Assembly: GCA_937125455.1 (NCBI GenBank)
Contig: CAKZLK010000056.1
Span: 1 to 38,697, forward strand
Length of the DNA stretch: 38,697 nt
Direction of reading: 5' to 3'
Origin: an uncultured Aequorivita sp.
GTDB taxonomy: Bacteria; Bacteroidota; Bacteroidia; Flavobacteriales; Flavobacteriaceae
The position numbers were made by a program, and so were the translations under genes. Each line of letters opens with the position of its first letter. Position 1 is the first letter of the stretch. Positions 18,256 through 21,885 of this stretch are shown piece by piece. The notes below the pieces were generated by a model that was given only the letters and a program-made list of their open reading frames with translations, was not told the origin of the DNA and ran no database searches.

Positions 18256-20154
18256 ATGAGCGACGCGTTAAAACATGAATGTGGAATTGCACTAGTAAGA
18301 CTTTTGAAGCCCTTGGAGTATTATAAGGAAAAATACGGAACGGCTTTTTACGGTGTTAATAAAATGTATTTAATGATGGAAAAACAGCACAACCGCGGAC
18401 AAGATGGCGCGGGTTTTGCCAGCATTAAATTGGATGTTAATCCTGGGGAGCGCTACATAAGTCGTGTTCGTTCCAATGCATCTCAGCCCATTCAGGATAT
18501 TTTTGCACAAATCAACGAACGTATAAATCTTGAATTCAAAAATCATCCCGAATATAAAGACGATGTTGCTGCACAAAAAAAGAACATTCCTTATATAGGT
18601 GAATTGCTTCTGGGCCATGTTCGTTACGGTACTTTTGGAATAAATAGTGTTGAAAACGTACATCCTTTCCTACGCCAAAATAATTGGATGCACCGAAACC
18701 TAATTATCGCGGGAAATTTCAACATGACCAATACCAACGAGCTTTTTGACAATCTTATAAAACTCGGAATGCATCCTAAAGAGAAGGCCGATACCGTTAC
18801 GGTTATGGAAAAAATTGGTCACTTTTTAGATGATGCAGTTCGCAAACTATACAAAAAGGCAAAAGCCAAAGGATTGAACAAACAAGAAGCTTCACCCTAT
18901 ATTGCCGAACATCTGAATGTTGCAAAAATTCTCCGTAAATCTGCCGCTGATTGGGACGGTGGTTATGCCATGGCTGGACTTTTAGGTCACGGAGATTCTT
19001 TTGTGCTTCGCGACCCTGCAGGAATACGTCCCGCATATTTTTACCAAGATGATGAGGTGATTGTAGTTGCTTCAGAAAGACCTGCAATCCAAACTGTTTT
19101 CAATGTTCCTTTTGAAGAAGTGAAAGAGCTTGACCCTGGACATGCATTGATTATAAAGAAAGATGGAAGCATGAAACTTTCTGAAATACTTTCGCCTTTG
19201 GAACGCAGATCTTGTTCTTTTGAACGCATCTATTTTTCTCGTGGAAGCGATGCAGAAATTTATCAAGAGCGAAAAATGCTCGGTAAATTGATTATGCCAA
19301 AAATTTTGGAGGCCATAGATTACGATACTGAAAACTCTGTTTTTTCCTTTATACCAAATACAGCAGAAACTTCGTTTTACGGAATGCTTGAAGCTGCGCA
19401 GGATGAACTGAACAAACAAAAAAACGAGGCAATTCTGAACGAAAAGGAAAAGTTAACTCCTGAGAGACTTAAACAAATACAAGCCCATAAAATACGCACA
19501 GAAAAGATTGCGATTAAAGATGTAAAGCTTAGAACCTTTATTACAGACGATAGCAGTCGCGATGATTTGGTTGCCCACGTTTATGATGTTACTTACGGGG
19601 TGGTGAAACCAGAAGACAATCTCGTTATTATTGACGATAGCATTGTTCGCGGAACCACTTTGAAAAAGAGTATTCTGAAAATGTTGGATAGGCTTCACCC
19701 AAAACAAATTGTTGTGGTTTCTTCGGCTCCACAAATTCGTTATCCAGATTGTTATGGAATTGATATGGCGCGCCTTGAGCATTTAGTTGCTTTCCAAGCT
19801 GCGTTAGAGCTTCACAAAGATCGTGGTACTTATTCAATTGTTGAAGAAATATATCATAAATGTAAAGAGCAGGTTGAAATGGAAGATGTCAATGTCATCA
19901 ACCATGTCAAAAAGTTATATGCTCCTTTTACAGATGAAGAAATTTCAGATAAAATAGCTGAAATAATCAGTGAAGAAAACATTGAATCCAAAGTGAAACT
20001 AATTTTTCAATCTGTTGATGATCTGCACAAAGCGTGTCCAAAAAACCTTGGTGATTGGTATTTTACTGGAAACTACCCTACCGCAGGTGGAAACAGGGTT
20101 GTGAACCGAGCCTACATCAACTTTTATGAGGGTAATCCAGATCGAGCGTATTAA
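18256..20154 (+). CDS. purF: Amidophosphoribosyltransferase (glutamine PRPP amidotransferase), long Bacteroidota form
   Basis: Catalyses the first committed step of purine synthesis: PRPP plus glutamine to phosphoribosylamine. The protein is 632 residues, longer than the roughly 470-510 of E. coli or B. subtilis PurF. The glutaminase nucleophile is Cys9 in MSDALKHECGIALV, which implies removal of an eight-residue leader. NRGQDGAGFAS and LLGHVRYGTFG belong to the N-terminal amidotransferase domain. The phosphoribosyltransferase PRPP loop is LVIIDDSIVRGTTLKKS (about residues 455-470). Extra length is spread over insertions around 85-115, 185-225 and 375-420, and a longer C-terminus. SCSFERIYFSRGSD and the later PDCYGID keep cysteines near positions that hold an iron-sulfur cluster in some relatives, but I cannot confirm a cluster. 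Confidence 0.95.
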   Translation: MSDALKHECGIALVRLLKPLEYYKEKYGTAFYGVNKMYLMMEKQHNRGQDGAGFASIKLDVNPGERYISRVRSNASQPIQDIFAQINERINLEFKNHPEYKDDVAAQKKNIPYIGELLLGHVRYGTFGINSVENVHPFLRQNNWMHRNLIIAGNFNMTNTNELFDNLIKLGMHPKEKADTVTVMEKIGHFLDDAVRKLYKKAKAKGLNKQEASPYIAEHLNVAKILRKSAADWDGGYAMAGLLGHGDSFVLRDPAGIRPAYFYQDDEVIVVASERPAIQTVFNVPFEEVKELDPGHALIIKKDGSMKLSEILSPLERRSCSFERIYFSRGSDAEIYQERKMLGKLIMPKILEAIDYDTENSVFSFIPNTAETSFYGMLEAAQDELNKQKNEAILNEKEKLTPERLKQIQAHKIRTEKIAIKDVKLRTFITDDSSRDDLVAHVYDVTYGVVKPEDNLVIIDDSIVRGTTLKKSILKMLDRLHPKQIVVVSSAPQIRYPDCYGIDMARLEHLVAFQAALELHKDRGTYSIVEEIYHKCKEQVEMEDVNVINHVKKLYAPFTDEEISDKIAEIISEENIESKVKLIFQSVDDLHKACPKNLGDWYFTGNYPTAGGNRVVNRAYINFYEGNPDRAY

Positions 20155-20231
20155 ATCCTTTTAATTTTAACACACACATTACCGTTTATCGGAAACCCAA
20201 TCCACTTTATCGAAATTGTTGATTGACACTA

Positions 20232-20260
20232 TTTTAGTGCTCAAACTTAAATTATATTTG
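20232..20260 (+). promoter_or_regulatory. Promoter of putative small RNA A
   Basis: TATATTTG (20253-20260) matches the -7 consensus TAnnTTTG, with TTTTA (20232-20236) 16 bp upstream as a weak -33 element. The equivalent place in cassette B has the same -7 box. A short palindrome CACTATTTTAGTG (20227-20239) overlaps the -33 position. Between the purF stop and here (20155-20226) there is no gene and no clear purF terminator. Confidence 0.6.
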
Positions 20261-20261
20261 A

Positions 20262-20342
20262 GCTTACCATATGGCGTAAGTAGGTTAGGTCTATGGTAAG
20301 ATTTGGGGCAAAAAAGGTAGGCGAAAGCCTGCCTTTTTTCAT
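20262..20342 (+). ncRNA. Putative small RNA A (stem-loop plus terminator hairpin)
   Basis: It starts a few bases after the -7 box. First hairpin: CTTACCATA (20263-20271) and TATGGTAAG (20292-20300) are exact reverse complements around a 20-nt loop containing GTAAGTAGGTTAGGT. Second hairpin: AAAAAAGGTAGGC (20310-20322), GAAA loop, GCCTGCCTTTTTT (20327-20339), one G-U pair, enclosed by ATTTGGGGC (20301-20309) and GCCCCAAAT (20343-20351). This has the shape of an intrinsic terminator. The predicted RNA is about 80 nt. A paralogue with a different hairpin sequence but the same plan lies at 20733-20811. No protein-coding potential is evident. Expression is inferred, not shown. Confidence 0.65.
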
Positions 20343-20554
20343 GCCCCAAATATGGGGTGGCGAGTATTCTATATTTTTTATTTATTCCATAAATGGGTCC
20401 GAGCCGTTTCTACCTTTCTTTGCGAAAGCCTGCCTTTTTTCATGCCCCAAATATGGGGTGGCGAGCATTCTATATTTTTATTTATTCCATAAATGGTTCC
20501 GAGCCGTTTCCACCTTTCTTTGCGAAAGCCTGCCTTTTTTCATGCCCCAAATAT
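20321..20554. repeat. Tandem repeat array A (about 2.3 copies of a 100-101 bp unit)
   Basis: Units start at 20321, 20422 and 20522 (partial, to about 20554). Each begins GCGAAAGCCTGCCTTTTTTC, the right arm of the hairpin of RNA A, then ATGCCCCAAATATGGGGTGG, CGAG(T/C)ATTCTATATTTTT, ATTTATTCCATAAATGG and CCGAGCCGTTTC. The left hairpin arm occurs only once, ahead of the array. ATGC...CCCC/GGGG...GCAT can form a further small hairpin in each unit, and in unit 1 the C-to-T change still allows a G-U pair. The 101/100 bp spacing breaks the reading frame between units, so the array is not coding. From 20555 to 20703 I see only AT-rich sequence. Confidence 0.9.
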
Positions 20555-20703
20555 TGGTGATTAGTCGGTTAAAAATTTTCTTATTTTAATACTTTACTAA
20601 AATCCCAAACGTTAAATTTTCTAATTATTGAATGGTTTTTTAATTAAAAAATGGCAAAACACGTTTTTCAACGAGAAAATAAGCAATTCGTCTAAAACCG
20701 TAG

Positions 20704-20731
20704 TTTTGAATACTTTATTGATATATATTTG
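20704..20731 (+). promoter_or_regulatory. Promoter of putative small RNA B
   Basis: TATATTTG (20724-20731) is an exact copy of the -7 box of cassette A, with TTTTG (20704-20708) 15 bp upstream in the -33 position. Confidence 0.6.
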
Positions 20732-20732
20732 A

Positions 20733-20811
20733 ACATACCATTAGCATAAGTAGGTTAAGTTCATGGTAGATTTGGGGCAAAAAAAGGCAAACACTGTTTG
20801 CCTTTTTTTAT
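20733..20811 (+). ncRNA. Putative small RNA B (paralogue of RNA A)
   Basis: It has the same order as RNA A. TACCAT (20736-20741) pairs with ATGGTA (20763-20768) around a loop carrying CATAAGTAGGTTAAGT, then ATTTGGGGC. The terminator hairpin is AAAAAAAGGCAAAC (20779-20792), loop ACT, GTTTGCCTTTTTTT (20796-20809), perfect over 14 bp. Compared with RNA A, both arms of the terminator stem have changed together while the loop of the first hairpin is nearly identical. That is the pattern expected for a structured RNA. Predicted length is about 79 nt. Confidence 0.65.
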
Positions 20812-21095
20812 GCGTCAAATATTTAGGGGTGGCGAGCTTTACATGGCATCTTTTGATATTTATAATCTCCCTTGCGAGCCGTTTACCCTTCTCCAAAAAC
20901 ACTGTTTGCCTTTTTTTATGCCCCAAATATGATGGGGTGGCGAGCATTTCCGGATACCTTATTGATATTTAAGCTCCTTTTGCGAGCCGTTTGCCCTTCT
21001 CCAAAACACTGTTTGCCTTTTTTTATGCCCCAAATATTTAGGGGTGGCGAGCATTTCCGAACATCTTATTGATATTTATGCTCCTTTGCGAAACG
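20791..21095. repeat. Tandem repeat array B (about 2.8 copies of a 107-108 bp unit)
   Basis: Units start at 20791, 20899 and 21006. Each begins ACACTGTTTGCCTTTTTTTA, the right arm of hairpin B, then GC(C/G)(C/T)CAAATAT, GGGGTGGCGAGC, a TTATTGATATTTA-like stretch and TGCGAGCCGTTT. The third unit decays near 21085-21095. Array B shares its core (GCCCCAAATAT, GGGGTGGCGAG, GAGCCGTTT) with array A but has its own hairpin arm, matching the single left arm at its head. From 21096 to 21210 there is only low-complexity CT-rich and AT-rich sequence. Confidence 0.9.
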
Positions 21096-21276: not shown

Positions 21277-21885
21277 CTATTTGTTTTTAGCGTAATTCGC
21301 GGAAACTTCTTCCCAGTTAATTACATTCCAAAATGCACCAACGTAATCTGGGCGCTTATTTTGATATTTCAAATAATAGGCGTGTTCCCATACATCCAAT
21401 CCTAAAATTGGTGTTCCACCGCAACCTACTTTTGGCATTAATGGGTTGTCTTGATTTGGAGTGGAACAAACATCCACTTTTCCGCCTTTATGAACGCAAA
21501 GCCAAGCCCAGCCCGAACCGAATTGCGTTTTGGCAGCATTAGAGAATTTTTCTTTAAAAGCATCGAAACTTCCAAAGGCATCATCAATAGCTTTTGCCAA
21601 GTCGCCTGAGGGCTTTCCGCCACCGTTTGGAGACATTACTTTCCAAAAAAGGCTGTGATTATAAAAACCGCCGCCATTGTTACGGACAGCTTTATTCTCC
21701 ATATCAAGATTGGTCAAAATATTTTCAATGGTTTTTCCTTCCATTTCGGTGCCTTTAATGGCATCGTTCAAATTGTTGGTATAACCTTGGTGGTGTTTGT
21801 CGTGGTGTATTTCCATCGTTCTGGCATCGATGTTTGGTTCCAAAGCATCAAATGCATACGGTAATTTTGGTAATTCGAATGACAT
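21277..21885 (-). CDS. sodA: Superoxide dismutase, manganese-type
   Basis: Converts superoxide to oxygen and hydrogen peroxide. The protein is 202 residues. The four metal ligands are His27 (EIHHDKHH), His77 ([11 protein letters not shown]), Asp164 and His168 ([14 protein letters not shown]). Gly-rich [10 protein letters not shown] and Gln145 in NQDNPLM sit at positions where Mn enzymes carry Gly and Gln, so Mn or dual metal use is more likely than strict Fe use. There is no signal peptide, so it is cytoplasmic. The gene stands alone with its own promoter and terminator. Confidence 0.97.

Follow-up and report, generated by a model that had tools for sequence, protein, structure and literature searches.

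The CiaR-dependent csRNAs of streptococci and the Qrr small RNAs (sRNAs) of Vibrio are encoded in multiple copies, which have their own promoters with sites for one regulator and pair near start codons. In type I modules such as TisB/IstR-1, the mRNA of a small hydrophobic peptide is accompanied by an RNA complementary to its leader. For LhrC of Listeria, the two-component system LisRK is named in the portion of the article drawn on here (PMC4132741). The nearest published work that we found is a transcriptome of Flavobacterium psychrophilum with 85 newly described RNAs, among them Rfp18, a structured RNA conserved in Flavobacterium without which the mRNA levels of two metalloproteases are not normal; these statements, and a mention of the Flavo-1 RNA motif, come from excerpts of PMC9723704. 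Candidate non-coding RNAs are described for F. columnare (excerpts of PMC5395568), and mRNAs of Bacteroidota are naturally without Shine-Dalgarno sequences (excerpts of PMC6847099). The sRNA biology of the Flavobacteriaceae, a major marine and freshwater family, is thinly known. Searching titles and the beginnings of abstracts in the open-licence literature, we found no family-wide RNA, multicopy locus or partner RNA of the kind reported here; searches of this literature also gave no paper joining purF, sodA, sRNA and Flavobacterium, and none with the five core strings.

The locus studied here lies in a stretch of 38,697 nucleotides from an uncultured Aequorivita sp. (the window), in which an earlier note had proposed two paralogous sRNA cassettes between purF and sodA. 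We confirm, at the level of sequence, that Aequorivita has two paralogous sRNA genes here, both with a promoter-like box, a terminator and a predicted RNA of ~75 nt, and consider it probable that they belong to a multicopy sRNA that acts in trans by base pairing and has a co-regulated partner RNA, the two pairing near the start codon of the latter. The features of the locus are as follows.

18256..20154, + strand: purF, the upstream neighbour (open reading frame with Pfam glutamine amidotransferase domains; the gene name is a reading of the sequence)
20185..20211, + strand: tentative repeat TTTATC ... TTTATC, 21 apart, 5' of copy A (from the sequence)
20253..20260, + strand: -7-like box TATATTTG of copy A (from the sequence)
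20264..20339, + strand: sRNA copy A (covariance-model match 20264-20339, and fold), with 5' hairpin, linker GATTTGGGGC and terminator hairpin
20282..20309, + strand: main predicted target-pairing region of copy A (-43.4 kcal/mol for the duplex with the leader of the small ORF)
20667..20692, + strand: direct repeat TTCAAC-N14-TTCGTC, 5' of copy B, starting 71 bases before CCAT
20724..20731, + strand: -7-like box TATATTTG of copy B (from the sequence)
20735..20809, + strand: sRNA copy B (covariance-model match 20735-20808, and fold), layout as in copy A
20779-20793/20795-20809, + strand: terminator arms of copy B (from the sequence)
21277..21885, - strand: sodA, the convergent neighbour (Pfam Fe/Mn SOD), with its own terminator at 21241-21218

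The anatomy given in the earlier note was borne out: both cassettes share the same -7 box, the stem TACCAT/ATGGTA, the common loop TAAGTAGGTTA and the linker ATTTGGGGC, followed by a terminator hairpin, and folding agrees with this layout. The terminator arms differ between the copies and still pair, with folded stems of 13 and 14 bp. The z-scores of the fold energies are -6.2 and -3.2 for the two copies (200 shuffles). The reading frame that runs through the RNA differs by one base in copy B as against copy A, while the RNA itself is kept; a coding reading of the cassette (MVRFGAKK...) was rejected, as this frame is absent from copy B. Each gene thus has its own promoter-like box and an intrinsic terminator, with no conserved ORF.

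Downstream of each copy, at 20321-20579 and 20788-21087, there are about three tandem units of 100-108 bp each, which repeat the terminator 3' arm and GCCCCAAAT-like letters, mostly also GGGGTGGCGAGC...GCGAGCCGTTT. In the source genome this pattern is confined to the two stretches. At least one GGTGGCGAGC unit lies 3' of sRNA copies in 18 of 22 Aequorivita genomes and also in another genus (L055), and tandem GGTGGCGAGC units hold additional linker complements.

A blastn search with copy A matched 22 of 28 Aequorivita genomes, and both copy classes, A and B, were present in all 22. The covariance-model search that the earlier note had proposed was carried out with a model of 8 distinct A copies (R1). 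It matched 313 of 397 sampled Flavobacteriaceae genomes (195 of 237 genera), each with one to seven matches, often in tandem; the 84 genomes left over had no R1 match under stricter filters. The pair in the window goes far beyond what chance would give, and is one case of a family-wide set. With a second model of 65 copies (R2), an order-wide sample of 346 genomes gave 64 matches at E up to 0.01, of which 52 were in Flavobacteriaceae (50 of them strong) and 12 in other families, with at most 33.7 bits; among the Flavobacterium genomes shown of this sample (genus g127), the RNA was strong in 28 of 30. A class-wide sample (295 genomes, E up to 1e-4) had 7 matches, of which six fell in the family; the remaining one, from outside, scored 37.7 bits. 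Outside Flavobacteriaceae there are thus weak matches only.

A pattern scan of named genomes found at least 118 loci. With one exception, these were assigned to Flavobacteriaceae genera or to a higher rank, the genera including Maribacter, Zobellia, Flavobacterium, Aquimarina and Winogradskyella, all of which we take to belong to this family. The exception, contig L197, is recorded as a Lentimicrobium MAG, presumably not a Flavobacteriaceae genus, and carries purF, sodA and Flavobacterium-like sRNA copies; it is probably a mis-binned contig.

The earlier note had recognised no known RNA family, and none emerged from Rfam 15: at the gathering threshold, a tRNA was the sole match in the whole window, and at E up to 10 the best match in the region was RmaA, with 25.4 bits against a gathering threshold of 57. 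We file the sRNA as a putative new RNA family of a known kind, that of multicopy trans-acting sRNAs. If this is true, few regulatory sRNAs known from Flavobacteriaceae would be as widely conserved.

Among the matches listed, 84 of 118 loci have purF upstream on the same strand together with sodA downstream in convergent orientation, 17 have purF alone, 11 sodA alone and 6 neither, several of the loci with a single neighbour being cut by the contig end or by the end of the fetched stretch. In total, purF is upstream on the same strand in 101 of these 118 loci and sodA downstream and convergent in 95. In one Flavobacterium genome (G626, L246), a degenerate sRNA copy is found just 3' of purF, and its loop reads AGTAAATTAAT.

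This arrangement bears on two other explanations. A hairpin followed by an intrinsic terminator is also what a cis-acting element would look like, either an aptamer with a terminator or an attenuator of a neighbouring gene. However, the copies are arranged in tandem, many with a promoter-like box of their own, and the next gene, sodA, is encoded on the opposite strand (convergently in 95 of 118 loci among the matches listed) and has a terminator of its own, which led us to reject cis-regulation of sodA and makes a cis-acting element very unlikely in general. The tandem copies and the adjoining repeats on the 100-bp scale in Aequorivita could also be taken for chance repeats or the remnant of a mobile element rather than a gene. 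Against this stand the fixed synteny, a core that is invariant across genera and a search of viral contigs in which none carried the sRNA, so that we regard this explanation as practically refuted by the pattern of conservation.

The earlier note had based its case on covariation, and this part of it stood for one of the two hairpins. In 57 distinct copies, two-sided changes occur in 11 of the 13 terminator-stem pairs, whereas the first hairpin has 14 pairs, 9 of them invariant and one changed on both sides. Extended to 135 distinct copies, drawn from 80 of the 118 named loci among the matches listed, the counts are 12 of 13 terminator pairs against 1 of 13 first-hairpin pairs. As a clue to function, the covariation did not hold up: it is that of an intrinsic terminator, which says little on function, and the functional part is kept in sequence instead. 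The inner UAA/UUA pair (columns 15/23) is broken in 26 of the 135 copies, many of them from Flavobacterium, where many copies read UUA..UUA in place of UAA..UUA; conservation therefore does not extend to the innermost pairs, and the apical loop probably measures ~13 nt. All 150 copies among the matches listed contain the core AGTAGGTTA, and 149 of them contain ATTTGGG, counts that are biased upward because the locus-finding pattern contains both strings. Since the terminator stem covaries and the first hairpin hardly does, the selected property is mostly sequence, and the near invariance of the 5' hairpin and linker is probably due to pairing with the leaders of other RNAs. The last copies of Maribacter-type arrays have the linker variant GGGACGAAAA.

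Upstream of the copies, we found a direct repeat of the form TTNRTC-N14-TTNRTC. Among the matches listed, it occurs at spacing 20 before 31 of 76 distinct first-or-only copies (at most 2 in shuffles, at most 5 at other spacings from 10 to 30), 6 of 35 middle copies and 5 of 41 last copies. Strict pairs precede 42 of 152 copies, and 41 of these 42 start 70 or 71 bases before CCAT, again among the matches listed. In the window, the first half of the copy B repeat is one base off TTNRTC, and the tentative repeat of copy A is unlike the family consensus in position and spacing. Boxes similar to the -7-like box are found in many other copies. With its halves about two turns of the helix apart, such a repeat is reminiscent of LytTR-type regulators. 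In arrays of the Maribacter type (e.g. L102, L107, L137), a different upstream region, CAATACCAGTA(A/T)TTTAG, is conserved before the last copy, and the copies of an array are therefore probably driven differently.

Exact searches for the linker complement in three genomes led to a partner. An orthologous site in G000 and G007 comprises a direct-repeat promoter region, a leader (TCCCAAATCTTACCAACTTAACCTCATATG in G000, ACCC.. in G007), a 29-codon ORF and a terminator, and adjoins a gene for an ABC transporter ATPase with an oligopeptide-transporter domain (Pfam). The mRNA of the ORF begins CCCAAAUCUUACCAACUUAACCUCAUAUG, and at this site a second CCCCAAATCT follows the stop codon, before the terminator; in G000 the ORF is MEKVIRSFKSTKELLLNVLFIFKKVFLLV. 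Complementarity between leader and sRNA extends over at least 14 + 9 bp and ends three bases 5' of the start codon. The predicted pairing region of copy A consists of the 3' half of the apical loop, the 3' strand of the hairpin and the linker, and the duplex with the leader has an energy of -43.4 kcal/mol for copy A and -37.6 for copy B, values that none of 200 shuffles reached in either case. Among 10,094 background windows of 70 nt, taken from the window and 20 named loci, a single one reached -35 with both probes, and its sequence identifies it as a diverged sRNA copy that had escaped masking, read in antisense; when probe A was taken alone, 11 windows reached -35 and 3 reached -40. The suggestion of the earlier note that the loop could be a target-pairing site is supported by these complementary leaders and by their co-occurrence with the sRNA described below.

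In a family-wide search built to skip the sRNA itself, the long complement was found in 8 of 397 genomes, compared to 2 of 397 for the backwards control. The 8 matches were one sRNA copy, three cases of the Aequorivita gene, two ORFs of other genera and two candidate sponges. The first of these, L307, was rejected as a target, being an sRNA copy read backwards. Conserved complementarity to unlinked mRNA leaders is thus limited to Aequorivita and a few other genera, and because the long complement is present in only 8 of 397 genomes, most sRNA-bearing genera are without an identified partner.

In two genomes of other genera (G179, G051), the complement is accompanied by ORFs of 43 and 42 codons, the second read by eye, which lie beside apparently the same transporter gene. 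In two more (G237, G217), a terminator closely follows it, and the flanking genes on either side are similar in the two genomes; the short RNAs that would start with the complement are candidate sponges, and in G237 an ATG frame continues through the terminator. At ~1500-1565 (motif strand) of L308 and L309, from two genera, there are short RNA candidates with a complement at the start and an early terminator, flanked on one side by a fasciclin-like gene and on the other by a small gene that adjoins a YidC-like one (as read from the sequence). In L306 (~1380-1540), about three sRNA complements fall in a small-ORF leader and its first codons. Six viral contigs contain the complement and, as far as they were read, none has a partner-like leader with a small ORF.

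Direct repeats, under a looser pattern, also lie 5' of 8 of the 9 small-ORF leaders compared in sRNA-bearing genomes (four more were left out of the comparison) and are missing in G051. Promoter repeats are thus shared by sRNA and partner genes, and one transcription factor may act on both.

That sRNA and complement are missing together from some Aequorivita offers a natural experiment. Six Aequorivita genomes have no sRNA match. One of these (G018) is 69% complete and has no purF match; three (G022, G010, G027) have kept purF, a terminator-like hairpin and sodA and lack the sRNA array; and the other two (G024, G005) have no sodA within 1.5 kb of purF. We sought the transporter in 30 genomes and found it in 18, which together with 5 more gave 23 for comparison, 13 with the sRNA and 10 without an intact one (one degenerate); five of the latter belong to other genera, in which the neighbourhood is altogether different. 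Of the 16 sRNA-bearing genomes asked, 8 gave no ABC orthologue. With both probes, pairing to the 420 bases beside the transporter was stronger than in any of 12 shuffles in 11 of the 13 genomes with the sRNA and in none of the 10 without. When the five genomes in which the site was discovered were removed, 6 of 8 sRNA-bearing genomes still beat the shuffles. The exceptions among the 13 were G100, which did so with one probe only, and G013, with none; among the 10, G027 exceeded the shuffles by 0.1 kcal with one probe.

The complement is gone in all five checked Aequorivita without sRNA, and in four of these the whole small-ORF unit is lost. The fifth, G005, has kept the ORF (MKNVTLFLKNTFGLVRNVFFVFKKVFLLM) without sRNA, complement or direct repeat, and G009 and G013 have kept the leader (weakly in G013), with the ORF reduced to a frame of 4 or 7 codons. 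Judging from these sequences, the presence of the complement goes with that of the sRNA and not with that of the ORF. On the transporter-gene tree, parsimony needs three changes of the sRNA label (G022; G024 with G005; G010 with G027), but the well-supported branches alone force only one change, so that the number of independent losses of the sRNA is uncertain.

These observations also bear on whether the RNA mainly binds a protein, by sequestration or in an RNP, with the leader complementarity being secondary. The nearly invariant 5' hairpin across the family and the amplification of copies in tandem, as in protein-titrating RNAs, would fit such a role, yet the conserved part fits the partner leaders over 23 bp, and genomes that have retained the sRNA have retained the complement as well. 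Further, a one-base indel is matched on both sides, by GGTAAGATTT/AATCTTACC in Aequorivita copy A and GGTAGATTT/AATCTACC in G085, with the limit that copy B and one G100 copy are of the short form without a matching leader. A protein-binding RNA therefore appears unlikely to us.

A type I-like toxin-antitoxin system acting in trans, in which the peptide is toxic and the sRNA array serves as antitoxin, would draw on the peptides themselves, which are 29-43 residues long, hydrophobic and basic (composition judged by eye) and have a common KK-hydrophobic C-terminal end, on the predicted pairing across the start codon region, and on the loss of the small gene in 4 of 5 Aequorivita without sRNA. 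It is at odds with the leaders without ORF in G009 and G013, with the ORF without the RNA in G005, and with the presence of the sRNA in many genera where no such peptide gene was found. Moreover, the RNA is neither antisense nor adjacent to the peptide gene: the array is on G000:C56 and the peptide gene on G000:C43, and in G007, where both are on one contig, they are ~248 kb apart. To our knowledge, the members of type I toxin-antitoxin pairs are encoded overlapping or adjacent to each other. We judge this explanation, too, to be improbable.

The preferred reading is that of a base-pairing sRNA, which would work as follows. Each cassette would be transcribed from its own promoter into a short trans-acting sRNA of ~75 nt that ends at the intrinsic terminator. 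The part that pairs would comprise the 3' half of the apical loop, the 3' strand of the first hairpin and the linker AGAUUUGGGG, with AGAUUUGGG as the predicted contact stretch. The leaders it would target in the cell read CCCAAAUCU(U)ACCA..CUUAACC, located just before or at the start codon. The clearest candidate partner, in Aequorivita and some relatives, is the small mRNA for the peptide of 29-43 residues, with its direct-repeat promoter of the same type. Pairing over the start region most likely blocks translation of this mRNA, or the partner RNA titrates the sRNA, or both. We tentatively extend this to a two-part circuit across the family, a possibility we put forward with considerable reserve, in which a differentially driven tandem array and a dedicated partner, beginning with a long complement to the array RNA, would carry repeats of the same regulator, their ratio setting the threshold of a regulon; the partner would sometimes code for a peptide and sometimes be a bare sponge, and the regulon would include surface proteins. 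With a fixed locus, a first partner and both a covariance model and a predicted site of pairing at hand, the mechanism is directly testable.

One possible further target is the gene of a CAP-domain protein (Pfam PF00188) with a lipoprotein-like start in G007; the start codon of this gene is surrounded by CCCCAAATCT, CCCCCAAAT and two copies of AACCTACT. Its duplexes have energies of -37.9 and -41.7, with no shuffle of 200 as low; the CCCCAAATCT site before this gene is found in one of three genomes only, and the direct-repeat pattern used has no match in the promoter of the gene. Taken by itself, the loop complement TTAACCTACT was not enriched and was dropped as a target finder, being rarer than the backwards control, which is itself not a fair control. 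In G106 (L262, ~1500), TTAACCTACT begins 15 bases 5' of a PorP/SprF-like start (as read from the sequence), possibly a further target.

Compared to known systems, the sRNA resembles the csRNAs and Qrr RNAs in being multicopy, in having its own predicted promoters and in its predicted pairing close to start codons; whether they are related in sequence was judged via Rfam only. With TisB/IstR-1 it shares the small hydrophobic peptide mRNA and the RNA complementary to its leader, but it differs from type I modules in that the RNA is multicopy, far from the peptide gene and present in many more genera than the latter. The Flavo-1 motif, which we take to be RF01705, likewise occurs in Flavobacteriaceae, but has no match in the region, at the gathering threshold or at E up to 10. 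LhrC is also a multicopy sRNA and regulates mRNA (portion of PMC4132741 drawn on here), but belongs to another phylum and has another sequence, and the sRNA of our locus has no Rfam match. Like this sRNA, the Rfp RNAs of F. psychrophilum are outside Rfam (excerpts of PMC9723704). In the main-text excerpts of that article there is no mention of purF or sodA, and the pairing site of Rfp18 is described as a 'third stem-loop', compared to two hairpins per copy here; one may speculate that a transcript over two tandem copies would hold a third stem-loop. Likened by description rather than by sequence, and on the basis of these excerpts, Rfp18 could be a member of the sRNA family reported here. As far as the descriptions of the F. 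psychrophilum and F. columnare RNAs go, transcripts of the family may already have been detected in Flavobacterium.
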